Assembly (NCBI RefSeq): GCF_018873765.1
Contig: NC_057921.1
Location: 66,453,557 to 66,517,556, forward strand
Length of the DNA stretch: 64,000 nucleotides
Direction: 5' to 3'
Source: Telopea speciosissima
Lineage: Eukaryota; Streptophyta; Magnoliopsida; Proteales; Proteaceae
Under the pieces are notes generated by a model. That model worked only from the letters and a program-made list of their open reading frames with translations. It ran no database searches and was not told the origin of the DNA. Of this stretch, positions 3,719 through 62,449 are shown piece after piece; positions within the stretch are counted from its first letter, which is position 1, and every line of letters starts with the position of its first letter. The translations under genes and the position numbers were made by a program.

Positions 3719-5452
3719 GGGAAAATATCATCCCCCTCCCCTCTAAGTTTGCCTAATATCAATTCAGTACCCAAGTTTTAAAAAATATCTTCCCCTTCCC
3801 CTACTTTATAAAGATTATATCAACCGTACCCTAACCGTTAAAAAACGCCATTAAGTGATATCCAATTTTTCTAAAACCCGAGATTACCCTTAGTAATTTT
3901 ATTTCAATTTTACCCTCTTCAACCCAAAACCCCATTTCTTTTTCTTCCTCTCTACGTTTGTTCTTCTTCTTCTGCCAGCACCACCATCATCGCCACCGTT
4001 GCAACCACAGATCCTCTTCCACCACCAACACCAGCGCCACCACCACCACCACTGTCGAACCCCAATTCCATCTTGTAACCCAGCTCCTCCATCCTTCTCT
4101 TGGACTGGATATTACCCATCTCTTTCTCCACATGAAACTGAAACTCAAGCCCACATCTCCATCTCCAATCTTCTTCCCATCTTTCTTCTTCTTCTTCTTC
4201 TTCTCCAAACACCCTAACTGAACCCATCTCTCTTTTCCTTCAATTAACCAAATTTATCATCACACCGTGACCCACTTCCTTTCCAAAACCCAAAAAAACG
4301 ATACCCAAAATTCTGGAATCCAAAATTTGCAGGTTTCGGGTGATTTCAGATAGCAGCCAAGATATTGCTCTGATGCCCACCAAACTAAGCTCGAAGGGTT
4401 ACCTAGGAGATGCTCTTTGATGTCCCAAAAGTTGGGGCTGAACAGGTTACAAAATCAGATTTAAGTAACAAATCAAACCATGTTGAAATAAATAGAAAAA
4501 CAGAGAATCCGGTTTGTTAAAACTGAAATTAAGCTTTGGAGATTTGATTTCTATTATCTTTTATCATTCAACCATCTACAATCACCCCAATTTCCGCCTT
4601 TCACCTTCCACTTTCCACCCTCCACCCAACTTCTATTTGGCTTCTCATTTCCATCTACTTACCTTATGCCTTTCCTATCTTCTTCCTTATTTTCTTTCAA
4701 CCCGGACCCTTGTACATATCAGTATGTCACTTTAACAGAAGTAGGATTTGAACTCAGGATTCAAGAGATTTACTTTAACACACTCAAAGAGACATAGATG
4801 AGCTTAAGAATCCCATCGAGTGGAGATAATATATCAAGGGATAAATTCTAAAAACTTCAAGGTAAAGAGATGAATATATTCTAAGATATGCCAATTCTTG
4901 ATATAGGGATCAGATGTAGAGATTTATCAGCATAGACCAAACCTAATCTCAGACCAGCCTTCAACTACTGTCGAGTAGCCCTTCTAGTTTGATCTCCAAA
5001 ATAGCAGCAGCAGCTGTCGTTCGCCCATGATTTCGGAGGCTGCTGGCCCTCCTTTTGGCCACCATAGGGGCGGCGGTGGGTGAATTGAAACCCTAATAGA
5101 GTTTTTTCCCTGTTTGTCGATTTGGGGAAGACGATGGGGAATATTCTCCGTCTGATTCCCTCAATATAATTAAAAGAAAAAGGTTTTCTTTAAGTTAAGT
5201 AATTGGAATTTGCTAACGTGCACTGCTGAGAAGGTGCTAATGTGTGCCAAGGTTGGGTCGGTGGATCCACCCATTAACTCTAATTTAAAAATGGTAATAT
5301 TGACTTTTCATATGCTATTTTAACAGAGTTAGTCATTTAGGGTACGGATGATAGTAACTTTAAAAAATAGGGGAGGGGGATGATATTTTTCAAAACTTAG
5401 GTACTGGGTTGATATTAGGGATACTTAGAGGGGATGGGGATGATATTTTCCC
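3719..5452. mobile_element. Mutator-like element (MULE), non-autonomous, interior unidentified
   Basis: The element starts GGGAAAATATCATCCCC and ends with its inverse. Inverted similarity extends roughly 150-200 bp inward (3719-3900 against 5270-5452). The 9 bases outside the ends are nine A's on the left (3710-3718) and AAAATAAAA on the right (5453-5461), an 8/9 match that fits the 9-bp target duplication of MULEs. The ends are the same family as those of the element at 54721-56756. The interior (about 3930-5260) has low-complexity Ser/Pro/His-rich frames and no transposase. I recognise no captured gene. Its size, about 1.7 kb, is usual for Pack-MULEs. Confidence 0.75.
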
Positions 5453-46942: not shown

Positions 46943-49897
46943 CTAACTCTTTGGAACTTCGGATTCCTCAGTCTTAGCAAACCTTCCTCGTACTCTTGGC
47001 TGGCTGTCAGCCAATGCTTTCCTGCAAGCATACTGAAAGAAACCGCCATTATTAGCCTATTGAGAAAAGGCTCTTGATACGGTTTCAAGTAACCTCTCTT
47101 TACGTTTTTTGGCTGTGTTTTGTATGGATTTAGTGAATAGATTCTGGGTTTAGAACACATTTTGAAGCGAGAAAATAGTGAAGAACTGGGTTTCAGAATG
47201 CATTCTAGACCCAGAGTCTATCCTGAAAATGCATACCATACACAGGCTTTTAATCTGTGAAGGCTGGGCATTTCTAGGGAAAAACCACATAAACGGAAAT
47301 CCCAAGTACAAAAAGCAGGATAAGGAAATCTTCCTTAAAGCATTAAGTATCCATAGGAGCCTAATCAAGGATAAAATCTCAGCTTTATTGGCTACAAGGC
47401 AACTGGCAAGTTCTATATCACATGGACTAAACCAACACAGCTAAAATTAATTTGAGAGAAAAGGTCGTAATTCTCTAAAACCAAAGAAATTATGACCCAT
47501 AATTTGAAGTCGAGAAGGAAATGGGAAAAACAGTAGCTGAAGACTTACCTTAATTTTCCGGCCAAAATTCCTCTTTGTCTTTTTCTTCCTATATCTGGAA
47601 AGCCTTTGCCGGCGTTCTTCAATGGTATAGTTGCCAATGGTTACTGGGCGCTCAAAGTGTGAATGAATGGAGCTCGAATTCCCATTACCAAGAAGCTGTC
47701 AGAAAAAAATCATAATCAGTGATCCTCCTCCACATCATGTGGAAATGGCTTAACACACAAACAGAACATCTTGCGGCATCTACAGTGTTGTTACAAAGAC
47801 CATGAACAATTCAAGGTCATAGCGAACAAATAAAGAAAAAAAAATATGCTGTTTCTATTCTTTTTTACTTTAGGGGAAAAGGTCTCTACAGGCTTCCCAT
47901 TAACCAAAGACCAACCACAGCAGCTCCTTGTAGACCACAGAGGGTCCATCTCCATCAAAATGGCAGTGAAGTGCATATATGAGATTACACAAGCATTCAA
48001 CAGGTAGCACCTATAAAATCTCCTAATGCGCAACACTCAGGCTAATATTAAACCTATTGGCAGATCATCCCTTGTCACTCGATTTCACTCAAACTCAATT
48101 ATATGATCAACCATCAACCTTGTCCTGTTTGACCATCCAAACATGTTTCACAGGGAAATTCTAGAGAATTTTGACATATTTCAACTAGCAGGACTTGAAA
48201 ACTTCACTACACCAAAACGTCCCTCACCACTGTGCTTCCACCTCAATTGTGATATATTGACTTTACTCTAAACATCCAGAGCCCTGAAACCAAATTCTTG
48301 TGACCTGTTTTACCTAACCAAATGAAACAGCAACCCACCACTGGGCTTCATTTACAGGTGGGCATGCCAGATTTCAGATCAGTGGTCTTAAACTGTCATA
48401 CAGCCTGTTTCAATTTGATTTCTAGTTTGCACCAGAGACGGCATAAATTTGCCAGAGGTGGAAAGAAAAGGTAAATTGAATAAGAGCAATTTCAATGGAA
48501 ATCCATAGTTATGATCAAATGCATAGGTAACAGGCCGCAGTGGATTGAACAGAGCCTCAAAATGAGGCAATGGATGGAGTAATATGAACAGGTAGGAATG
48601 ATCAGCCTCAATAATCAGTTCAACTTGTTTACAATAGATTGTTGGATTCAGTTGATCTGGTTTACAATGGACAATTTGATTAAGGACAAAAATTAAATGT
48701 CACTGGGAATGGTGAAGAATGTTACATGTCAGCAATTGCCATGTGGCAGATATGGATGAACCTGAATCTGTAGTCTGTACATGTGATAGTGGATCCCATA
48801 TTCATCTCTTTGGTCAAATTCCAGCCCAAAATAGGTGAGCAAAGTAATTAAAAAGTCCCACAACATTATGAGAGTGAATTTATGATGATGGACTCTGGTG
48901 GCATTTCCCAATCTCCTGTCAATATGGAATCCATTTTGAGGCACTTCCCTTGCTTGTTTGGGCCTAAAGACCATTTCGGTCCATATAACATGGCCACATG
49001 GCACACCCTTGTCTAAACATGGCACATTTACAATGTATCAATTGTGACCAGCCATGGTAATTAGGATCGTTCTAATACGTTTGTCATCATGAAAAAAAAA
49101 AGAGATGTTCACATTGAAAAACAGTTATGCCGTGGATGATGTCCTCACATTTTAATAATTTTATCCATTTTGGTCACACTAAAAGAATTACACTGTTTCC
49201 AGTGTCAAAAGGGGAGAAAAGTTTCTGTTGTGCTAACAGTGGTTACTTGGTATGTTACTCTTTGTCCATATAAAATAAGCTCTTCTAGAAAGTAGGAATG
49301 ACAAAAAAGATATCATCTAATCCCTCAGCATTACCAGATTACATATATACAAGAAGGAAGTGACAGGAACTCTGAAAACAAAGCTCATACCTGTATATCG
49401 CCCTCACTGAAAGCCCTGCGCATCCCACAGGCGGTTTCAAAATCTACTCCCCGAAAATCCAGAAAGTTTGGTCTTATGGCACCCCCATGAACCTGGTCAA
49501 TAGAGCTCAAACACTCAAAACTAACACTTTTCGGGATTTGAATCGCTGAAGTCAACCTATTTTTCTCTGCTGTTGGATCCCCCTCCACCTGGACAGCAGG
49601 AATCTTGACATCCAGGACCTCTGGAAATGATTCCTCCATGCGGGATTTTTCCAACATATCCTTCTCGCACTCATAGAAGAACTCACTTAACAGGTGTTCA
49701 ATTTGAATTGATTCAATATCGGTGACTTTGATTGTCTGGGGAGACATGCCATCTTCCCCACAAGACATCATTGAAATGGCAGCTGTCATGGGATCAAGGC
49801 TTATTACAGGTTCTTCTATGATAGGTTCTGGAGCTTTAAATAGATCTCCTTCTCCTCCCAGGTCATACTCTGACACAGTGGTCTGAACCAGGTTGTC
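46943..49897 (-). CDS. CCT-motif family (CMF) protein, 3' three exons; 5' exon not found
   Basis: Three minus-strand exons join in frame: 49391-49897 (169 codons), 47549-47695 (49 codons), 46943-47032 (29 codons plus TAG). The last two form a CCT domain: the block from YTIEERRQRLSRYRKKKTKRNFGRKIK (split over two words here) into YACRKALADSQPRVRGRFAK. CCT domains act in nuclear proteins of flowering and light signalling through DNA binding and NF-Y contact. The acidic exon before it (DLGGEGDLFKAPEP..., FLDFRGVDFETACGMRRAFSEGDIQ) matches CMF proteins that lack B-boxes. The exon at 49391-49897 starts at an acceptor (CTGTAG, then GACAACCTGGTTC), so at least one coding exon should lie 5' of it, at higher coordinates. 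I found none before the Pack-MULE at 50777. Either the intron is long and crosses the transporter fragment, or the gene is 5'-truncated. Confidence 0.88.
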
Positions 49898-50776
49898 CTA
49901 CAGTACAAAATAAATGTTAGAAACTTAGAAGAATAAAAGAATATCTTAAATTACAGGTAATTAAATTATATTACATTGCCTCCCCATCCATATCTGGGAG
50001 CGTTTGGGTAAGATGTATCAGTAAAATATTGTACAAGGTTATTTCTTTACAGTTGTAAAAGGTATTGCAAAAAGACACACCTCTTAATGCCCTCAAAGAT
50101 ATGGCAAAACCCAAAGAGGAAACTTTCCCAACTTGTAAACACCCCAAAATCTCTTTCCAGCCATTATAATTGAAGAAATTAAAGAGATTTTACTATAAGA
50201 GCAACATAACAAAATCTTCACAGCAATATTCACTAAAAAAATGATACTCCCTCTGTCATGCAAAGACAGTCCTGTTTTGGGATGTTAGTTGTCCCCTCCA
50301 TGGGAAGGCAGCCAATGCCAATTTGCCAAATAGATCATTGGCAACATTTAAATGGCTGAATCAATGACCATGCCTCTCTAGCATTTCTTAGCGAAATTAA
50401 AAATTTCCAGATCACTAGAGATATTTTTAGACACCATAAATGACAGAGGTAAGAGAAATGAACAAGGAAAAGGAAGCTATGGACCGACTTTTCTAAATAG
50501 CCTAAAAAGGTATTATTTTCAAATGAATGATACTAGTCTCCTTGTTTCATAGAACAAAATATTTAACCTTTCTTTGGGAACATAAAGAGTTAGCATTTTG
50601 GGAGAACTGAGGGCCAAATAAGAGGACCTTTATCCCCTGAGGTTCGCTGACCGGTACGGTTGTGCGGTTCCTCTCATAGGGGGGGCTGAAATGACCATTC
50701 CACCCCCTGACCGAACACACTGCCCGGGTGCGGTCCACCTCCGTTTTAGAAAACATTCTCTCTAAATAAATGAGAA
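49898..50776. other. Upstream of CCT exon; MITE remnant
   Basis: No coding exon is recognised in 49898-50620. A truncated TTATCACCTCC-family MITE lies at 50626-50750 (TTATCCCCTGAGGTTC at its start, ATGACCATTCCACCCCCTG and GTGCGGTCCACC inside). The Pack-MULE follows within about 30 bp. Confidence 0.45.
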
Positions 50777-51092
50777 GGTAAAATTTCACAAACAACCCCT
50801 AAAAATATCCAATATTTTAGAAACTTATCATACTTGGTCAAAATGTCTCAGACACCCCAAACGTTAAGCACAGTTAATACCCAAAGGTGAAATATCCATT
50901 TTACCCCTTAATTATTTAAATAAAAATATAGAACTGTCATTTCATCTTCCTCCCTAAATAATCATTTTACCCCTTAGTTATTTAAATAAAAGAACAACAC
51001 TATCATTTCATCTTCTTCCCTCTATAGCTGCGGCTCCGGCGACCATCAGCTGCTTCCCCCTATTTCTAAGTGAGAAAAAGAATATTAGTTTC

Positions 51093-51233
51093 AACATATC
51101 CCAACTCCTCCTCAATTATGCAGGTGTCGAGAACTAAGAGGAACACGGGAGGCTGAGGTGGCGGTGCCCCGTGAGATTCCGGGGCGGTGATGGCGTATTC
51201 GACAGTGGTGTATTGCGGGTAGAGCTCTACGAA
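51093..51233 (-). pseudogene. SEC23: SEC23 fragment (COPII coat), captured in the Pack-MULE
   Basis: The minus frame reads VELYPQYTTVEYAITAPESH, then QPPVFLLVLDTCIIEEELGYV. These match the start of the Sec23 trunk domain (ELYPQYTTVEY and VFVLDTCMIEEELG in plant SEC23). Sec23 is the GTPase-activating subunit of the COPII coat at the endoplasmic reticulum. Only about 47 residues of roughly 770 are present and both edges run into unrelated sequence. The TBCCD1 piece begins within about 25 bp on the opposite strand. Confidence 0.82.
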
Positions 51234-51255
51234 AGAACCAGTCTTTGTTCGGGCA

Positions 51256-51756
51256 AGAAGAGAGCCATTCGAGCATGGACTCCTTCCAATACCGAAGCTC
51301 ATTTTCTCAGATGGCACAGCAACCCTAGGCCCTTTCAAGGAGAAGTTCATCCAACACGCTTCTGCTTCTTCCTCTCCCCTCCGAATCGACGCCGACGGTA
51401 TTTCCCAAGTGCTTCAGATCTCGATCGAGAATGCTCGTCTCGTCCTTGACACCCTCGCCGCGGTGTTGCCCTCTGATTCAGACCCTCTAGTCACCGCCAA
51501 GCCTGGGGACTTGGATTCTGTTGGCGCTGATATTAACGATCTGATTCTCTTCCTTTATATCCAATCTTACAATAGACTTCTCCCCATGACCCACAAGGAT
51601 TCCGCTTCCGTCGCTGATGTCTGGCCTTCCACTTCCGCCTTCGATGGTTACCTATCGGCGCTCTCCCCATTGCAGGTAATAAACGATTATTTTTACTTGC
51701 GTTTGAATTTATGATATTCGACACTCGTTCATATGGGTTTCTACTTTCTATTGCAG
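51256..51756 (+). pseudogene. TBCCD1: TBCCD1 first-exon fragment with following intron, captured in the Pack-MULE
   Basis: The plus frame from 51256 reads RREPFEHGLLPIPKLIFSDG, then ISQVLQISIENARLVLDTLA, and ends ...AFDGYLSALSPLQ at a GT donor (51676). This matches the N-terminus of plant TBCC domain-containing protein 1, a tubulin-cofactor-C-like protein linked to centrosome/Golgi positioning. An 81-bp intron (51676-51756) ends in TTGCAG, after which the sequence no longer matches TBCCD1. The start codon is missing and an in-frame TAG lies just upstream (51220-51222), so it cannot make the native protein. The frame is otherwise open over 140 codons. Confidence 0.82.
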
Positions 51757-51806
51757 CTTTATCCAAACTTTGGTTTATTTGATTGCATTTTCGAATTATA
51801 CTGTTT

Positions 51807-52050
51807 CTTCCGCCGCCGGCAGAAATTTCTTTGCAGTGTCCAATGTGAAGGGGTCATGGTACAGAAACCCTATTTTCCCAAGCACCCAGACCCCAAGAGC
51901 TGAAGTCAAGTACTGCAAAGCAGTTGGTAGACCAGGGAAGTTGAATTCGGTAATAGCGTACTTATTCATGACCGCAAGTAGGCTCGAACAGAGAACGTAT
52001 GCGATAACGAGACACTTGTTGTGTAGTATTGCTTTGAAACATCAAATCTA
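51807..52050 (-). pseudogene. Nucleotide-sugar transporter fragment (UGNT1/GONST-like), captured in the Pack-MULE
   Basis: The minus frame reads IAYVLCSSLLAVMNKYAI, TEFNFPGLPTALQYLTSALG, then VWVLGKIGFLYHDPFT and TAKKFLPAA. This matches the first two membrane segments of UGNT1-type (UDP-GlcNAc/GDP-mannose) Golgi transporters. A preceding piece (SKQYYTTSVSL) is in another frame, so at least one frameshift is present. It covers about 75 of roughly 340 residues and ends abruptly after FLPAA. Confidence 0.8.
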
Positions 52051-52873
52051 GCGGAAACCATTGTTGCAACAGAAGCCAAACAGATTCAAAATGAAAGAAA
52101 CCCAGAAATCTTACCCAATAACAGTAGCTGATTTCAGAGCAAAATCTGGGAATTGCTTAAGGAGATCAAAAGGGGCTCGATCTGCAATGTCTGACGGAAA
52201 CGATGTAGACAAAAATCACAAAATTGAACAGATATACTCCTCAGTTCCGGAGAAGAAACCCACATCACCGACACAGTTAATGAAATGTAGTTCAACAAGA
52301 ATTTAGGAGGATTAGCAGTGGCCGAAGGTTGAAGAAAGGATCCGTCGATGGCGGGGTTGCAGGGGAGCAAGAGAAGGAGGGCTGGAGGGGGTGGCGGCGG
52401 AAGAAACAGCAGAAGGAGAAGAAGGGGGGGGGGAGGAAAAAGGAATAAAAAAAAAGTATTGAATAAAAACAAGGGCAAAATTGTCTTTTTCAAATTATTA
52501 ACTTCTAACATCAATAATTCATCATTAAGGGTATTATAGGGATTTCACTGTGATAAGAGTAATTTCGTCATTTAAACAGAACTAACAGACACTTAACTAC
52601 AGAGACTAACGGAGTAAACTACATTGAAACAAATTCATAAAAAATAGAGGGTGTTTGTAACATTTTGACCAAATATGGTAAATTTCTAAGATATTGAATA
52701 CTTTTAGGAGGTGTCCGTGAAATTTTCCCAAAAAAGAAATGTTTTCTACATTTGGAAGTATAGAATGCGCAAAGACACATGGAAAATGGAGCTAGCTGTC
52801 TAGTGCAAACCCCGAGGCACTGAACATGAGCCTCAGAAGGGGATCCGGTGAGAGAAGAGATGCAATTAATAAC

Positions 52874-53603
52874 CTGAACAACGAGACCTGTACGAGGTTC
52901 GACGGCCACCACATCTCTGCAGGCTCCACCAGATATCTCCGGAATATACCTGCCCACCCAAACCCCAACACCTACAAAATAACTCATCAAATACAACATA
53001 CCCAGCAAGTTAATCATTTATTAGAGATCTCAATCAAGCAATCTAGCAATCAAGCAATCACCACTGCAAACTTAATCAAAAAGAAAAGAAAAAGAGAGAG
53101 AGAGAGAGAGAGAGAGAAATGAAACAGACCTGGGTTGTGATAATAAGTAGGAAGGAAACGAAGAAGGTGAGCTGCCTCTTATAGTAAAGCTTAATAGCAC
53201 TAAGTATGTGAGTAGCATAGACAGTGCCAGCTCCAGAATTAGCAAAGATGGTGATGAGCACATGCTCTTTCACATTGAATGGTCCCGGATTGAGGGTGAA
53301 CTCCCACCGGCTACCCTTAAAGAAAATGCGATCGGTGAGGGTGGATGCCATGAGATGCCCCAGTGGGACCACTGCTATCTGGGCAGATATGGAGGTTATG
53401 GTTAAGGACTCAGTCCTGTACCAGAAGAACTGGTTTAAGAACGACAGTAACACGCACGACACCACCCCAAGTACCCACATTCGGAAGGTCAGCACAGGAA
53501 GACTCATATCGTCCGTCGTCGGCACCGTCAAAGCCACCTGCTTTACCGGTGAGTTTTCATTCTCATCTTCCACCGAACCCATCTCCATCTCCATCGAACC
53601 CAT
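52874..53603 (-). pseudogene. Truncated duplicate of the oligopeptide transporter (exons 1-2 only)
   Basis: Exon 1 (53130-53603, 158 codons, start [18 protein letters not shown]) and exon 2 (52874-52971, 98 nt, encoding [20 protein letters not shown]...) match the full gene at 58108-61912 almost residue for residue, with the same exon lengths and splice sites. Intron 1 is present, so the copy arose through DNA, not RNA. After exon 2 the similarity stops (about 52870) and exons 3-6 are absent; the Pack-MULE edge lies 145 bp further. Both exons are open, so a short truncated peptide could still be made. A TATA-like box, TATCTATTTAAGT on the minus strand near 53670, is shared with the full copy. 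The break could reflect unequal exchange or a transposon-linked deletion. Confidence 0.9.
53085..53117. repeat. AG microsatellite in intron 1 of the truncated transporter copy
   Basis: A pure AG run of about 14 units lies directly beside exon 1 of the truncated copy. The equivalent place in the full gene has only short GAGA traces (61398-61420). A second AG run lies at 53778-53812. Confidence 0.85.
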
Positions 53604-53775
53604 CTTCTGAGTCTCTCTAGAATGAGTTGGAATATGAAGTGCATGGGAAAATGGGATGGGACTTAAATAGATAATGTTTGGGTGGAACCTGCAAATGTTC
53701 TCATTACTACGGTAGGGGATAAGATTCTTAAATTAGGAAGTTTCCTTATCTATGGAGATTCAAAGCCAGTATCAC

Positions 53776-53815
<40 letters not shown>

Positions 53816-54720
53816 ATGAATCATACCACTACCCAAAATAGGTTGTTTTGACTTTTGAGTTTTGATGATTCAAAGTGTAGTGGAGTGGAGCAACAATTGA
53901 TGATGTTTTTGTTTTTTTTTTTTTTTTGATAAAAACAACATTGATGATGTCATCTATAAAAATGTTGTGTTTGTCGATGTATTACGACACGACACAGTTG
54001 CTGTTCAATGGAATTTATTTTAGAGAAAATTTCTTAGATCTATTAGGTAAGAACGAATATTACAAAATAAAGAGGCTTCAAATTAGTTTTACATCCCTTA
54101 TTTACCATTTCAAAAAGAGTTACTTAATCCACAAAGTTGGATAGTACTCATGCCATGCAAGGAAAAAACTAAAAACAAACCTTCAAAATTGCCCTAACCT
54201 CATTTGTCGAAAATAAAAAACTATTTTAAAAAGATTGCAAAGTATTTCTTCCATGTTTCACCCAATGATTTTTATAAAGATATTCTAAAAATTAGTAATA
54301 TAATAATTGAAATTAAGCTTTGGGGAATGATTTCATACTAAACCGTGTATGTGAAAGGGCGGGAGTTTCAAGGTATTAATTAATGGATGAGTATTTATGA
54401 CTTCTTAAACTTTTTGTGAGAGACCCTCTCACGTACACGGTTTACACGACTGTGTACGAAACCTTTTCCCGTAAGCTTTCTTTTTTTTTTTTTTGGTAAA
54501 AATTAAGTTTTCCTTTTAGGACTAAGTTTCCATCTACCCATAGAGGACAGTTTAGCTACCATCGTAGGGTTCACAAACCCCTCCTAGGGTTTTAATATGT
54601 TCCAAAATACCCTTCTGGTACCCTTTTCCACTTGCAGTGAATTGGAATCACATTCACCATTGTATGGAGACATTGACCACCACACGCCCTTTGAAGTTGA
54701 CGTTAGATTATTTTTTTTTT
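53604..54720. other. Upstream of the truncated transporter copy; MITE relic
   Basis: After about 100 bp of shared promoter-like sequence there is an AG run (53778-53812), a T run (53910-53926), and a fold-back element at about 54325-54470. In the latter, TTTCATACTAAACCGTGTATGTGA pairs (as adjoining words) with a right arm ending CCTTTTCCC. No gene is seen. Confidence 0.4.
54325..54470. mobile_element. Fold-back MITE with GGGRAAGGTTTC-like ends
   Basis: The left arm (GGGGAATGATTTCATAC, then AAACCGTGTATGTGAAAGGG) is mirrored by the right arm (CCCTCTCACGTACACGGTTT, then GTACGAAACCTTTTCCC). It is about 145 bp with no coding content. Confidence 0.6.
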
Positions 54721-56756
54721 GGGAAAATATCATCCCCTTCCCCTCTAAGTTTGCTTAATATCAATCTAGTACCCAAGTTTTCAAAAATGATTACTCCCTC
54801 CCCTACTTTCCCAAGATTCTATCAATCGTATCCTATCCTAACTATTAAAAAATGCCATTAAATGATGATGTGGCATGTACAAAATTTCTAAAACCCCAAA
54901 ATACCCTTAACCCAACCCAACCCTAACCTAATCTAAACTAACCTAACCTAACCTAACATTCTCTCTCCTCTCTCACTCCTCCCAATCCCTCGTTTCTCTT
55001 TCTTTCTTCTCCGACGAACACCATCACCGTCACACCTGCAACTCTTCTTCTCTGGTGAAACCAGTGAAAGAATCACAAAAATTAGTTAGATGAGGTTGGT
55101 AGAATGTTAGCTCTTTTTCTGCTTGTTAAGAATATCTTGCTCTATTCTCTAACAAATTAGTAGCTACTCCGGCAAAACTCCCTCTTAGAGTTCTGTGCCC
55201 AAGGCCCCAACCCCAGAGATTAGCCATGGCCTCAAACTCAATCCATAATAACAATAACAACAGCAGCAGCAGCATCAACAACAATCTCCAAGCTCTCAAT
55301 AACCTTTCTGGTTTCATGCAATCTGCTTCCTCCAATTTCGTCTCTCTATTCAATTTCAACCTCAACAGCAACGCCAAGACTTGACGACCTCCCCACCATC
55401 TGGTCCTCTCTCTACTATATCATCTTCTTCGTCAGTCATATGTTTGCCTTTTCTATTACCCGATGTCCCGCGGCCACCAATTCCTTCTCTGTTTAATATG
55501 CCCCCTGCCTCCTCTGACCAAAGCGGTTCCCTTTCATCTTCATCAACATCGGCAATCAAGGGCATGTCGCTGGCATCGGGGTTCCCTTCAACTGTTAGGG
55601 TCGCTGGTCTCAATTCAAGAGTAAAGGAAGGTGGACCTGCTTTCATGGGTTAGGTCTTCAGCATGTGTGACCTTTCCGATACTGGGCCTCATGGCCGTCT
55701 CAACTCGCCTCGAAATTCCCTTATTCCTTTCCAAAAGTTCAGCATTCGTCTATATCTCTCTTTCTTCTCTTTTGTAATTCAAGTTTATATATGCAAATAA
55801 TTCATTGAATCCCACTGTCATCATTGTTCATGGTTAAAAAAAAAAAAATTGAAACTTTTGTTTGGTATTAATTAATTAATTTATGCCCCACTCGATATGG
55901 GAAGGTGGATATGAGCTTCTCTGTTTGGTCGGGTTCTGCATCAACTTGGTTTCATTGATGTTGCAGCGAGTAGCTTATAACTTCTCTTACTGTTTTAACT
56001 TCAACGTGACTGTGACGTCCAATTTGGGGCAAGTGCAAGCCGAGGCTCTTCCACCTTGCATATTGTCCGTTCTATCAGTCACATACTTTTGATTGTTAAT
56101 GGGTAATTGCTCTGTTTATACCTCGAAACAATCGAAGATAGTTGGGAGTGAGAGAAGAACCCTAATCGCCGAGATTGTAATTGCAGGTCCAAGCCGAGCC
56201 GAGATGGGAGTCGCAGGTCGAAGCTGAGATGGGATGGGAGTTGCAAAGCTCAAGGTTTTTGATCTAGGGCACATACGATGCTCTTTAAATTGCAAACTAA
56301 TGAGGTTGATTCAATCGAGAACATGAATTCTAGGATGGAAAAAAAAAAGCAGGATAGCTTTTGAAAAAATTATCATGGCATGGATTGATCAACAGAGAGA
56401 CTTATAATTTCTGTGATTCTTTCACTGGTTTTGCCGGAGAAGAAGAGTTGCAAGTGTGATGGTGTTGGTGTTCGCCGGAGAAGAAAGAAAGAGAAACGAG
56501 GGATGGGGAGGAGTGAGAGAGTAGAGAGAATGTTAGGTTAGGTTAGGTTAGGTTAGGTTACGGTTGGGTTAAGGGTATTTTGGGGCTTTAGAAATTTTGT
56601 ACATGCCACATCATCATTAAATGGCGGCGTTTTTTAACAGTTAGGATACGGTTGATAGAATCTTGGGAAAGTAGAGGAGGGAGTAATCATTTTTGAAAAC
56701 TTGGGTACTAGATTGATATTAAGCAAACTTAGAGGGGAGGGGGATGATATTTTCTC
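54721..56756. mobile_element. Pack-MULE with a captured Tic22-like gene fragment
   Basis: The ends start GGGAAAATATCATCCCC and form inverted repeats of about 240 bp (54721-54965 and 56520-56756). The outside 9 bp are nine T's (54712-54720) and TTTTCTTTT (56757-56765), an 8/9 match. The same ends flank the element at 3719-5452. The inner part of each repeat carries a CCTAA/TTAGG pentamer run. There is no transposase; the interior holds a broken host-gene fragment (55226-55722), and the stretch 55870-56480 has no recognised coding content. Confidence 0.85.
55226..55722 (+). pseudogene. Tic22-like family protein fragment, captured in the Pack-MULE
   Basis: An opening Asn/Ser-rich frame (MASNSIHNNNNNSSSS...) runs to a stop at 55382-55384. 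The next frame carries MSLASGFPSTVRVAGLNSRV, then KEGGPAFMG, a TAG, VFSMCDLSDTG, and in a third frame LMAVSTRLEIPLFLSK. Together these resemble the N-terminal part of the plant protein group annotated Tic22-like (VAGLNSRVKEGGPAFVGQ..., then VFSMCDLSGTGLMAVST). I assign that family from memory. At least two frameshifts and one stop are present, and the last piece ends at what was probably an exon border, so it cannot make the native protein. Tic22 proteins act in chloroplast protein import. Confidence 0.55.
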
Positions 56757-58107
56757 TTTTCTTTTATGATCTCGAATTTTGGTATTCCATTTTCTTTGTT
56801 TTTAATTTCATTTCCTTTGGATTATGATGCTATAAAATATGTTTTCATCTTTTTTGGGTTATACCGTAAAAGGTATTACCATTTTAAATTTTAAAATCCT
56901 CCATCACCATAATACCGTAATAGGTATTACTACTTCCCGTAATCTTCTTATCCTACTTTATCACAATCTTTTCCTATTTTTGTGAACTTCACACGGTTGT
57001 TTTCTTCAATGTGATTTAAACAGTTTTTTACTTTTCAATAAATGAGGTTAAGACAATTACGAAAGTTTGCTTTTATTTTGGATGAGTACTAACTAACTTT
57101 AGGGATTAAGTAAATCTTTTCAAAATGAAAAGTAGTGGACGTAAAATAAATTTAAAACCTATTTAATTATCTTGTAATTTTCGTTTTTATCTAGTAGATC
57201 TAAGAAATTATCCCTTTAGTTTATCTACCAATGATGGAAATTAAGGGAATTATCTATTTAGAAACAAATTGGGGGAAAATGAAATATCTGTTCTCGCATG
57301 CATGAACCGCGCAGAGTCTCCGCAAGTGGAAATCCTTGATTTTTGTTGGCAGTTGGTAAATGCGTCCAAATCTAATTTTGTTTTTGTTTTAATGAATAGA
57401 AAAACAAGTAGCACTATATTTAATGTTCAAATTTGCAAGAATAAATGCATATGGGAACCAACCCAACCTCTGCTACAGATACAGAGTTGAAACTTCCATG
57501 TAAACAAGTAGCACTATATTTTTAATGCTGGCTTGAAAGAACAAGAGGCAATCAAAAAATGAAGAGGAAGATTCCCTGTCTGATTCTACTTACAATACAG
57601 CAATGCATATATGCTTGTGATGCATTGATTTGTTCAGTATACCCTATTTTGGTTGGAAAGAAAATCAAAGGTGGAGGTCCTCAATGTATTTGTATTGAGG
57701 CCTCAGTGAAGAATTTAGGATAAACACTGTACATTACCTCAGATTAGTCCGCCCAATGCAAGGTCATTATTAGAATTGAAGAACTTTGTTTTTTTTGTTT
57801 GAGAATTATGTGTCTGTATCTTATGCAAAAGGCAAAAGCAGGGTACGTTTCTTTGTAATCAGGGCAGTATTATCACAAGAAAAGTTGAATTTGGAACAAA
57901 AATATTCTTGATTCTTATAATTCTACTGAAAATGTAAATTGTCATTGTATTCTTTTCCACCTGTTGAATTTCAAAAAAGTAAGCACCAATGTGAATGCCA
58001 ATGTATTTGACTATATTAAGAAACAAGCAACTGCCCTTGCATAAAAAGGCAAGGTAGAATAAGAAATATTTACATCCAAACGAGTGTTTAGCCTTTGCAA
58101 ATTCAAG
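56757..58107. other. Gene-free stretch downstream of the oligopeptide transporter
   Basis: AT-rich. A frame at 57269-57490 matches no family I know. A short direct repeat, AACAAGTAGCACTATATTT, lies near 57403 and 57503. The part near 58000-58107 is the probable 3' untranslated region of the transporter. Confidence 0.4.
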
Positions 58108-61100
58108 TCAGAAGACCGGGCAATTATCAACAATCACTCCTTCGGCGGTTGGGCAAGAAGCTAAAGGGCAGCCATCTATGTTGGTTCCCCACCAATTAAT
58201 GCTGATTCCCTTCAGTCCTAAGCACAGAAATAGGAGCACACCCATAAAAGCCAGGCCAGCATCTAGAGCCCCTGAGAGAATATAATTGTGGCGTTGCCAC
58301 CAATTTTGTCGGTATCTATAGAGGATGAAGCCAGAGAGGAACGCAAGAAGTAGCCAGGTGCTAAAGTTGATAGCGCTGGCAGGTGGCATCATTCCTGTTG
58401 CACTTAATAGGATTGGCATGTTGATGAGGCGGATCCATTTCTGCTGAGGGAAGGCTTTGTGTGCAACCCAAACAAGAACTGGGGCAATGGCTCCACCTAG
58501 GAAGAACCAATTGACAGCTGAATGTGTACCGAGGTCCCCGAAAAATCTGCGAGGGCCAATCAGTCCCCAGATGACAGATGCATCGTAAAATACACGGTCA
58601 TTTGGACAGGTCCATGGGCTATTGGGGGGCAGCAGGGAAGTATCACAGATGTTTGGGATGGAAGTCATTAGCCACCATGCAGTTCCCAAGTAGACCAAAC
58701 AAGATAGCAAGGTTCCCACAACCTGGCTCATAATGTAAAGAAGAATATTACAGAAGATCAGTTGTTTTGTGGTTAATTAAAAGTCACCCTATTCCTGACT
58801 TAGAAAATGAAAAGGAATGAAAAATTAAAGCTAACCTGGGCCATGAACATTGATTTGGGAGGAATCTTCATGTACTGACCAAGCTTGAAATCTTGCAGAA
58901 AAGTGATGGCTTGAGTCATGCTGATATATATCCATACACCTTGAAGCACATGTTGGCAACAGGACGCCCTGGGTACATGTACCCTATGATATACTCAGTA
59001 ATGATGTTCAACCCTGGTTGCTGTTACATTGGCATGCTAGTGATCAGGCTCACACCCTGGGGAAGATTTTTTTTTTTTTTAAAAAAAAAAGCAAAAAGAA
59101 GGGAACTTTGAATTGTAAACAAGATTAAAAAGAAACCCACCTGGTTTGTGGTGGCATAGATGATGCCAATTGGGAGAGTGAAGATAAAGGCAAGGAAACA
59201 AGCTAGTAAGACTCCCCACCATGGTAACTGAAGTTGGTCGTTGTAGTACTGACAAGCGAAGAGAGTTGCAACAATGTTGAAGAGGAGGATGCAGATGAAC
59301 CACCATTGGGGCACTTGCTTATACTTACTCATAAGCCTTGTGTGTATGTCCATCTTCCTCTTCTCCTTCAATAAGCCTGATTTGCTTAGCTCCAATATTT
59401 CCCTGTTATGTGATTTTAGCATATGAGATTTGTTGTTACTAATGTTGCTGAGAAATTTTTGTTTGTAACAATTTAGAACGAGGAAATTAAGCTACCATTA
59501 CCTTCCATGGAAGAAAAGAACGTGAACAATAGTGGCGGTGAGGGCAGCGAAGCCAACACCATAGCTAATGGCAAAGAAGGTGCTGATGTAAAGAGGGCCG
59601 TTCTGCTTGTAGGCGTTGAGATCAATTTGGAATTTAGAGTTGTTGATAGAAGAGATGTTGTAGGTTTGACCAGAAGAGGTGAAGAGATGGCTGGAGAAGA
59701 TGGGGAAGGTCTTGGCATGGTAGATGTTGAGCCAGTAGGAAACAGGGACGATGAGGTACATGAGGATGAGGAAGCCAACGGCAATGTTGGCTGTAGCAAA
59801 CCAAGGGCTCCCAAGTGGACTGCCAAGGTATGATGAGGCGGTGGACCAATCAAAGGCCATAGCACCAATGCCCAGACCTTGAAGGCCAGAGCCCAGTTGG
59901 TTGGCGAGAACAGACTTAGGAAAGGCCCAGCAGACCCAAGACATGGAGGTTGACATAGGGAATAGGTAACCAGGAAAGATATAATAAGCAAAACTACACA
60001 TGAAGGCAATCAAGAAGAATTGGTTACGCGTCAACCGGCCCTTGGGGGTGTCTTCTTTCTCATGTAAAGCTCTGCAATAGTAATAATCAATCAATCAATC
60101 AATTAAACAATCTATCTATCTATCTCTCTATCTCGTATCCAAAACAAATTAATAATGATACATACATACTATTATACCTATTAATTTCTTCATTCCGTTC
60201 CAAGTCTTTAAACTTCCCTCCACATTTCATATAAAATACACACATAATATATACATACGACGACGTACAAGTTACATACATCCTATGGGCACTGTTAAAT
60301 AGGTATCAACAAGGATCATATCGTTGCCAGGATGTAGGGACAATGAGAGGTGCACAAGAGCATTAATGGGGTGGGATTTTTTATTATTTTAATAGCTCAT
60401 AATATAGGCCGATGGGTATTATGATATGGGCGGGGAAATGTTTACCAAAACAAAAAGCGTATTAATTCGGAGTTTCATACTTTTTAAAATCAGAAAAGAG
60501 GATTAGTGGTTGGGACTTGGGACTTGGGACTTAAATTGGAGATCCCTTATTCCCTACTCTCCAAGGGGAAGGGGACCCATTTTACTGTATTCAACCCTGC
60601 TAGGACCTCACAGCAACTGTTTGTGCTTTTGCCTCTATGGTGCTTGTGTTTGCTCGTGTGGGCACGGGTTGGATAAAATTTTGCTGCCATCCAGTTCGTA
60701 GCCAAAGCAACATAATCAAGAAAGGGGGAAATTTTTTTGCTGCTGCGCCCATAGCAGGAATGTTCCTGCTACAAGGGTTCATAAATATCCTCCTACGTTT
60801 TATTATTTTCTAAAATTGATCCCATTTCCTTGGCTGCTAGTTTTGTAGTAGGAACATTCCTACTACTACTGTAACAGCAAAATTTCGTTCAAAGAAGGGT
60901 ATTTTGAAAAATACTAGAATCGAGGAAGGTGTTTATAAATCCAAAAGAGAAGTGAATTATTCCATTTCTTTTGTTGCAAACACTAGTAGCAGGAAGCCAG
61001 GAACATACCTGCAATGGCTAGGGGTGTTAAAAAAACCCCGGCCAGCCTGAGTCTGCCCAAATCAGCCCTGAGCCCAAATAGGACTTGGCCAAGCCTAGAG

Positions 61101-61912
61101 ATAAGGGTCGGGTTGGGTTTGATATTTTGCATGGCGCAGGGCTGGGCTGAGGCCTCGGCCGTGACAGGGCCAGCCCAACATGTATTTTATATAATATATA
61201 TTTATACAATACATAGAGGGTGTGCTTTAGTGCAACGATCAAACCTGAACAATGAGACCTGTACGAGGTTGGACGGCCACCACATTTCTGCAGGCTCCAC
61301 GAGATACCTCCGAAATATTCCTGCCCACCCAAACCCCAACACCTACATATATGCAATACATACCAGTAAGCAAATTGATCAAGTCAAGAAAAAAGGGAGA
61401 GAGTGAGAAAGAGGTGAGAAGGAATCAAACAAACAGACCTGGGTGGTGATAATGAGGAGGAAAGAAACAAAGAAGGTGAGGTTTCTCTTGTAGTAAAGCT
61501 TAATAGCACTGAGAATGTGAGTGGCGTAGACAGTGCCAGCTCCAGAATTAGCAAAGATTGTGATGAGCACATGCTCCTTCACATTGAATGGTCCCGGATT
61601 GAGGGTGAACTCCCACCGGCTACCTTTGAAGAAGATGCGATTGGTGAGGGTTGACGCCATGAGATGCCCCAGTGGCACCACTGCTATCTGCGCAGATATG
61701 GAGGTGATGGCCAAGGGCTCAGTCCTATACCAGAAGAACTGATTCAAGAACGACAGCAACACGCACGACACTACCCCCAATACCCACATTCGAAAGGTCA
61801 GCACTGTGAGGTTCGTGTCGTCCGTCGTCGGCACCGTCAAAGCCACTTGCTTTACCAGTGAGTTCTCGTTCTCATCTTCCAGCGACCCCATCTCCATCGA
61901 ACCAATCTCCAT
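58108..61912 (-). CDS. Oligopeptide transporter (OPT family), 2-bp frameshift in exon 5
   Basis: Six minus-strand exons: 61439-61912, 61245-61342, 59502-60071, 59141-59402, 58836-59020, 58108-58722. With the disrupted codon phase restored by alignment to the family the length would be about 733 aa, normal for plant OPTs. OPT proteins are multi-pass proton-coupled carriers of small peptides, glutathione or metal chelates. Signature motifs are visible: NPG in [13 protein letters not shown] (exon 1) and a KIPPK motif at the usual KIPPR site (exon 5). The C-terminus ends [10 protein letters not shown]. Exon 5 is 185 nt instead of the 183 nt the protein requires: a TATATAT stretch (58923-58931) has one extra AT pair between GYI and SMTQAI. 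This breaks the frame, so the gene is either a young pseudogene or carries an assembly or allele error; all other exons are open. Exons 1-2 are duplicated at 52874-53603. Intron 2 holds MITEs. Confidence 0.9.
60670..60886. mobile_element. TTTTGCTGCTACA-family MITE(s) in OPT intron 2
   Basis: A partial copy (60673-60722, TAAAATTTTGCTGCCATCC) is followed by a fuller one (60730-60886): TTTTGCTGCTGCGCCC, then GGAATGTTCCTGCTACAAGG on the left, and GGCTGCTAGTTTTGTAG, then TGTAACAGCAAAATTTC on the right, with CATAAATATCCTCCTA in the middle as in the copy at 40533-40849. A further related stretch continues to about 61015. Confidence 0.7.
61016..61200. mobile_element. hAT-like element end, in OPT intron 2
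   Basis: CTAGGGGTGTTAAA at 61018 is the TAGGGGTGTNAA type of end, and the body is rich in GGTCGGG and GCCCAA words as in the element at 39696-40532. The right end is not clear, so this may be a fragment. Confidence 0.4.
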
Positions 61913-61945
61913 TTGTGATATGAAATATGGGGGAACAGGGAAGGT

Positions 61946-61971
61946 ACTTAAAAGATATATATATATATATA
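61946..61971 (-). promoter_or_regulatory. TATA-like box of the oligopeptide transporter
   Basis: Read on the minus strand, TATATATATATCTTTTAAGT lies about 35-60 bp before the start codon. The truncated copy at 52874-53603 keeps a similar TATCTATTTAAGT about 70 bp before its start. Conservation between the two copies supports a core promoter role, but no start site is known. Confidence 0.35.
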
Positions 61972-62449
61972 GTTACTAGGAATCAAAATCCGAATTGGAA
62001 TCGGGAACCTCCTACTTAATAGGAAAGAAATTGGCTTAGCTGGCTTTCGTAATCCCTTATTAAGTAAGGTTCTTTATTCCTTATTTATTATATATATATA
62101 GGGATTTTGGGTCATCATACACATAGAGTAGAGTTATAAAGGGTATTAAATTCTTAAGTACGAATCTTAGAGTTATATAGGGATTCTGTTATCAACCATG
62201 GTTTGAGCAATCGGTATCGGATCGGCCGATTCGTAATGGTACAAGGGTAAAAATGTAAAAAAAAAAAAAAATATATATTACAATTTTCAAAGGAAACAAT
62301 ACCGATACATGTGATTGATTTGTTGATGTAGGAAGACACAGTTGTTATTGAACGGGATTCTGTTTTACCAACCAATGGTAAGGAATCTGTTGGGGCAAAC
62401 ATGAATCATGCATTATCATCTCAGAATTGAAGAACCTAGATTATTTTTA
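61972..62449. other. OPT upstream region with ATCGG-type relic
   Basis: No gene. A TA run lies at 62088-62100. Positions 62200-62250 (CATGGTTTGAGCAATCGG, then ATCGGATCGGCCGATTC) belong to the dispersed ATCGG-type repeat, followed by an A run at 62258-62271. Confidence 0.4.

Follow-up and report, generated by a model that had tools for sequence, protein, structure and literature searches.

How could pieces of three unlinked host genes come to lie side by side inside a single mobile element? The question is raised by positions 50777-52729 (1953 bp) of the window, by which we mean the whole stretch of 64,000 nucleotides analysed here (C6:66453557-66517556 of an 823-Mb plant genome). A sequence-only reading of this DNA had proposed that one element carries three gene pieces, from SEC23, TBCCD1 and a nucleotide-sugar transporter, in the orientations minus, plus and minus, and this is the arrangement that we find (Table 1). 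We are highly confident that this window copy, hereafter EL1, belongs to the Pack-MULE type of non-autonomous Mutator-like elements; its mosaic was probably made by template switching and was then amplified.

Table 1. Features of the mosaic element EL1 and its flanks, in window coordinates (TSD, target-site duplication; TIR, terminal inverted repeat).
Feature	Position	Strand	Remark
Left TSD copy AAATGAGAA	50768-50776		7/9 match to right flank
Left TIR, 81 bp	50777-50857	+	67/81 match to right arm
Left MULE-family end, TIR and subterminal part	50777-51054	+	Common to other family elements
About 40 bp of no found source, left end to SEC23 piece	51055-51094		39-bp pattern search
Captured SEC23 coding-exon piece, 133 bp	51095-51227	-	95% to L064:4696-4828 = C4:54380195-54380327
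6-bp microhomology GAGCTC, SEC23/TBCCD1 joint	51222-51227		Present in both donors
Captured TBCCD1 piece, 582 bp	51222-51803	+	98% to C10:6069382-6069963
17-bp TBCCD1/transporter joint CTG-TTTCTTC-CGCCGCC, CTGTTTCTTCCGCCGCC	51801-51817		Reverse complement of 52393-52409
Captured 5' part of GDP-sugar-type nucleotide-sugar transporter gene	51811-52317	-	97% to C11:1790252-1790759 (508 bp)
31 bp of no found source, transporter piece to right end	52318-52348		Pattern search
Right MULE-family end including TIR	52349-52729	+	Element positions 1573-1953, or nearly, in at least 35 further matches
Right TIR, 81 bp	52649-52729	-	67/81 match to left arm
Right TSD copy AAAAAAGAA	52730-52738		7/9 match to left flank

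The long inverted ends and the 9-bp flanking repeat of the earlier reading are both present, the inverted ends reaching 81 bp and the flanking repeat being imperfect. A 66-bp tandem duplication (50890-51021) lies inside the left end. Under a criterion that accepts lengths of 8-11 and up to 2 mismatches, 0.9% of pairs drawn at random from the window would also count as flanking repeats, so the duplication of EL1 itself is backed mainly by its family. A genome search with the whole element returned at least 112 matches (40 of 1564 candidates were scored, and the counts are lower bounds), and at least 35 further matches, besides the three mosaic copies described below, contain the right end, which starts at about position 1573 of the element. 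We fetched 36 right-end loci, including the other two mosaic copies EL2 and EL3; 33 of these have both ends and 3 lack the left end. The set that we compared thus consists of 34 elements, the 33 fetched ones with both ends (EL2, EL3 and 31 others) and the window copy. At the exact ends and without any shift, 19 of the 34 have a perfect 9-bp TSD, 7 match at 8/9, 6 at 7/9 (EL1 among them), one at 6/9 and one at 4/9. Scores of at least 8/9, seen in 26/34 family elements, occurred in 0/2112 comparisons when the flanks of the 33 fetched elements were shifted by 10-200 bp as a control, and a score of 7/9 occurred in 1/2112. The ends had been taken for those of a MULE with relatives elsewhere in the genome, and the recurring right end together with TSDs in most of the elements compared bears this out. 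Both the duplication length and the long ends of the family are those of Mutator-like elements, for which a target-site duplication of 9-11 bp is given in the relevant passages of a tomato study (PMC3310237). Of the 44 frames in 50700-52800, 10 were searched against Pfam, and these identified no transposase in EL1, returning two weak matches below the cut-off. Helitrons can also carry gene fragments, but they are not known to have inverted terminal repeats or target-site duplications, and the long TIRs and 9-bp duplications speak against an element of that kind.

All three donor genes are present in the same genome, as had been anticipated, and remain in place on three chromosomes (C4, C10 and C11). 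Searches with the element's own pieces were uninformative, as Pfam gave no assignment and solved structures gave weak matches for the SEC23 and transporter pieces and none for TBCCD1, so we take the identities from the donors. On this footing the proposed gene names hold. The SEC23 donor exon, an open frame, matches Pfam Sec23_trunk and zf-Sec23_Sec24 as well as solved SEC23 chains, and the transporter donor has an uninterrupted 358-residue frame with a match to Pfam TPT, and two GDP-mannose transporter sequences are all that this frame matches in solved structures at E values up to 1e-5. Presumably this transporter is nearest to the plant GDP-fucose transporters. The transporter piece carries a 1-base deletion in its coding part. 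As for the third name, the TBCCD1 donor exon is followed, 14 kb downstream on the same strand, by a TBCC domain (PF07986) with one stop inside the six-frame match; the captured exon itself has no Pfam match and is presumably from TBCCD1. A paralogous locus (C10:60079719), 85% identical to the captured piece, likewise has a TBCC match about 24 kb downstream on the same strand, and these two matches on C10 are 2 of the 6 TBCC places in the genome. The TBCCD1 piece covers the greater part of the first coding exon, which it leaves at 51675, and continues for 128 bp into intron 1.

The joints between these pieces are informative about how the mosaic was assembled. The SEC23 and TBCCD1 pieces had been described as lying about 25 bp apart; they actually overlap at a hexamer that is common to both donors. 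At the second joint, the TBCCD1 piece ends with CTG, which is followed by TTTCTTC and then by CGCCGCC of the transporter piece, and the whole 17-mer is the exact reverse complement of a part of EL1's own right end. This 17-bp match is the longest between the joint and the reversed right end, compared with a maximum of 9 among 1149 other cargo windows and of 14 among 5000 shuffled joints, none of which reach 17. EL2 and EL3 each differ from the EL1 17-mer by one base. The CGCCGCC step sits in a GC-rich repeat, which makes this microhomology less telling than the 17-mer as a whole. We read the 17-mer as a filler probably templated from the opposite end and placed between two microhomologies, which, on the letters of the joint, points to template switching. 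The segments that connect the left end to the SEC23 piece (51055-51094, searched as the 39-bp pattern) and the transporter piece to the right end (52318-52348) have no genome matches outside the three copies of the mosaic when up to 3 mismatches are tolerated.

In the scheme that we propose, an ancestor element would have been broken or excised, and repair synthesis that was due to copy the sister strand would have switched templates at short matches, first from SEC23 to TBCCD1 at 6 bp, second from TBCCD1 to the element's own right end at 3 bp and third from the own right end to the transporter gene at 7 bp, before the synthesis finally rejoined the right end. The finished mosaic would then have transposed with transposase supplied in trans. 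The whole mosaic may have been made in a single repair event, with the polymerase moving from SEC23 to TBCCD1, then to the element's own right end (on the opposite strand) and lastly to the transporter gene, a reading to which we give somewhat less than an even chance. If it is true, the element would be a stepwise record of gene capture by plant MULEs, and a MULE upstream of SEC23 could be a relative of the starting element.

Alternatively, capture may have started with SEC23, with the remaining two pieces added in subsequent rounds of ordinary repair, and we hold this as a serious but tentative possibility. SEC23 is the most diverged of the pieces: in the three copies, divergence of the cargo from its donors is 4.5-7.0% for SEC23, 2.1-3.4% for TBCCD1 and 1.6-2.6% for the transporter. 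In EL1, 7/133 positions of the SEC23 piece are diverged (5.3%) versus 25/1089 (2.3%) in the other two pieces (Fisher p 0.07), and in EL2 the counts are 6/133 versus 22/1089 (p 0.11), and the SEC23 piece is thus not clearly more diverged than the others. A family MULE also lies at L064:2527-3805, upstream of the coding exon of the SEC23 donor, so that SEC23 could have been taken in cis; the right end of this MULE has 0 transversions over 296 sites relative to the right end of EL3, and we regard it as a lead on where SEC23 was acquired rather than as proof. Separate rounds are, however, not what the other observations suggest, since no element with one or two pieces was found (4/4 candidates were scored for the SEC23 region and 40 of 1564 for the rest) and since filler from an end of the element itself links TBCCD1 to the transporter, as would be expected of continuous repair synthesis. 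The same MULE near the SEC23 donor might instead suggest capture by neighbouring insertions, in which two elements flank host DNA and move together, as parts of the literature describe for Arabidopsis Pack-CACTA elements. We consider this very unlikely for EL1, as its donors are on three chromosomes, no family MULE end (E up to 1e-6) occurs in the 9.9 kb around each of the TBCCD1 and transporter donors, and both donor-donor joints consist of microhomology and templated filler and not of MULE ends.

Amplification is recorded in other copies of the mosaic. A search of the genome for elements with the same ends had been suggested as a check and, apart from the large family, it uncovered the same mosaic at at least two other loci. 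EL2 (C1:39106559-39108520) is a second full-length copy with 93% identity. EL3 (C6:44913088-44914818) has an internal deletion of element positions 391-640 and has lost the SEC23/TBCCD1 joint, and its identity is 93% over element positions 641-1953 and 86% over positions 1-390. The joints retained in each copy are the same across copies and the 1-base deletion in the transporter frame is common to all three, which indicates that capture was finished and the mosaic complete before amplification.

The three copies have decayed unevenly. Divergence among them is 11.5-14.4% in the left ends and 6.2-12.9% in the right-end segments versus 1.4-3.5% in the gene pieces. EL1 and EL3 differ by 61 transitions and 15 transversions over 650 sites in the ends and by 15 transitions and 14 transversions over 1005 sites in the cargo, giving p values for ends versus cargo of 1e-13 for transitions and 0.18 for transversions; the pattern for EL2 and EL3 is similar (transversions, p 0.07). 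We scored C-to-T changes in the ends against the family majority, an imperfect ancestor, and in the cargo against the donors. Counted in this way, C-to-T or G-to-A changes at C/G sites number 30/189, 21/185 and 26/187 in the ends of EL1, EL2 and EL3, respectively, and 13/575, 11/575 and 7/434 in their cargo, so that the rate is 11-16% of C/G sites in the ends versus 1.6-2.3% in the cargo, a six- to nine-fold difference. Other substitutions, too, are more frequent in the ends, by a factor of 1.4-3.3 over the cargo, for which reason the ends may partly be older, and they may be older than the capture. In the three copies the ends decayed mainly by C-to-T change, and the contrast with the well-kept cargo would fit cytosine methylation that was concentrated on the ends and largely spared the cargo, a suggestion drawn from the substitution pattern. 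This decay is not family-wide: in cargo groups C and D the ends are about as diverged as the interiors, while cargo groups A (right end) and B resemble the trio.

It could also be that, after capture, recombination among members of the family placed the cargo on other ends, which would account for the ends of the three copies differing more than their gene pieces. Between EL1 and EL2 the ends have an excess of transversions too (p 3e-5), which deamination does not explain and which counts in favour of an exchange. Further, in right-end trees with 35 rows the AU test rejected the three copies as a clade (p 0.0016; p 0.0024), and it did so again after purine/pyrimidine coding (p 0.0012 and 0.0015). 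However, six sites found to distinguish two right-end groups, themselves chosen from the tree, fall in a low-complexity tract (52399-52422), and a test limited to the last 280 bp does not reject the trio clade (p 0.20 and 0.22), although 2/6 pair tests are still nominally low (EL1+EL2 DNA, 0.027; EL1+EL3 recoded, 0.041). The left ends of the trio do not reject the clade, and the excess in the ends is mostly of transitions. After the low-complexity control we withdrew end exchange as a claim for the three copies. Elsewhere in the family, a clade of cargo group B is rejected by the left ends (p 0.001 and 0.0003) and one of cargo group D by both ends, the left ends in each case being analysed without the low-complexity control; the interior of group D is a high-copy repeat and need not form a clade. 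Overall we find it unlikely that the cargo changed ends in this manner; end exchange is possible in the family and unproven for EL1.

The other members of the family also carry diverse cargo. By coverage profile, the interiors of the 34 elements fall into about 20 types, some of which have modules in common. Interior frames from ten other elements were compared with Pfam, and 4/10 were above the cut-off for host domains, namely PRA1 (L036), AAA_assoc (L039 and L047) and Aldo_ket_red (L028), while 5/10 had no match and 1/10 had a C2 match under the cut-off. Genome searches for interior donors covered three sister interiors (L025, L035 and L030). The L025 interior is itself repetitive, with 255 first-look candidates (40 scored), so recent gene capture does not account for every interior. 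Part of the L035 interior (positions 827-1358) recurs in L023 and L049 at 93-94%, and as these three elements belong to different cargo groups the cargo is mosaic across the family. Separately, we observed in the sister element L036:2382-3179 (in C2:29165600-29169800) a 266-codon frame without interruptions, in which a PRA1 domain is almost complete (profile 3-143 of 143, E 6e-49) and which, judged by eye, looks like a whole coding sequence and not a fragment.

The earlier reading had noted in the TBCCD1 piece a GT donor and an 81-bp intron with an AG acceptor and had called a spliced chimeric transcript possible. The AG in question (51755-51756) falls inside donor intron 1, which is about 785 bp long as judged by eye from the reopening of the conserved frame LVRSNSRRF..., and the native acceptor was not captured. 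Native splicing of the TBCCD1 intron was rejected for this reason, as the next donor coding frame comes about 785 bp after the donor site and 128 bp were captured, and the anatomy of the element gives no support to a spliced chimeric transcript. That EL1 is a domesticated chimeric gene, making a spliced protein or regulating its donors under selection, strikes us as highly improbable. The TBCCD1-frame ORF is indeed open for 163 codons, and the window copy has exact 24-mers in common with the loci of TBCCD1 (331), the transporter (266) and SEC23 (29), but the first ATG of this ORF comes only at codon 122, the splice acceptor is missing as described, the deletion in the transporter frame is present in three of three copies and the SEC23/TBCCD1 joint is gone from EL3. 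Because the frames are broken or have no start codon, the present role of the element as a protein is most likely none, and any effect on the donors would putatively act through small RNA or antisense RNA.

EL1 is a known kind of element, and what stands out is how unusually clear its joints are. Rice Pack-MULEs include pieces of several loci (Jiang et al. 2004, as cited in PMC8903248, PMC8277862 and PMC13317346), and according to passages of PMC8903248 and PMC4858842 there are Pack-type elements, in rice and in further plants, to which several loci have contributed pieces. Like the rice elements, as they are described in these passages, EL1 has non-autonomous MULE ends, TSDs, unlinked host fragments, several copies and more than one source locus. 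In EL1 the donor-donor joints can be read against donors at 95-98% identity, and one of them has a filler probably templated from the element's own opposite end. Joints that can be compared with their donors at this identity, along with the own-end filler, make template switching testable through close relatives. For Pack-MULEs, gap filling combined with template switching is an earlier proposal; in animals it is argued from microhomology in a study which, in its discussion of plant Pack-MULEs, leaves the use of its models for them open (PMC8277862). The animal Pack-TIRs and the gap-filling and fork-switching (FoSTeST) models, as outlined there, resemble our case in breakpoint microhomology, proposed template switching and multiple copies via transposition, the difference being that EL1 joins three unlinked donors in series. 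A known single-fragment Pack-MULE was, according to its description, likewise amplified after capture of a host fragment and likewise has repetitive motifs in its ends, but it has one fragment and duplicated TIRs whereas EL1 has three fragments and a 66-bp tandem duplication. In their remarks on the subject, the tomato study calls MULE gene acquisition "yet to be understood" (PMC3310237, 2012) and the animal study calls gene acquisition by MULEs and their kin perplexing (PMC8277862, 2021). Within a collection of open-access papers, we found no Pack-MULE with TBCCD1, none with SEC23 and no paper that links Pack-MULEs with magnoliids.

Finally, several other features of the window lie around the element. 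Two oligopeptide transporter (OPT) gene copies are found at 52871-53732 and 58108-61972. Only the start of the copy nearer the element is recognisable (Pfam OPT at 53076-53732), its piece 52871-52976 matches 61242-61347 at 93%, and it looks truncated about 140 bp from the element, while the farther copy has more parts of the OPT domain at 58108-60094. To the left of the element, a gene with a CCT motif in two halves, as if split by an intron, lies at 46943-47698 on the minus strand, one half being above the cut-off (E 1.4e-9) and the other below it (0.0045). Two further elements with long inverted ends were observed, one at 3719-5452 with an 8/9 flanking repeat that is a run of A, and one at 54022-57215 with an 8/9 flanking repeat if one-base shifts are allowed. 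Inside the latter, at about 54712-56765, is an inverted-repeat element with telomere-like repeats and no clear flanking repeat.
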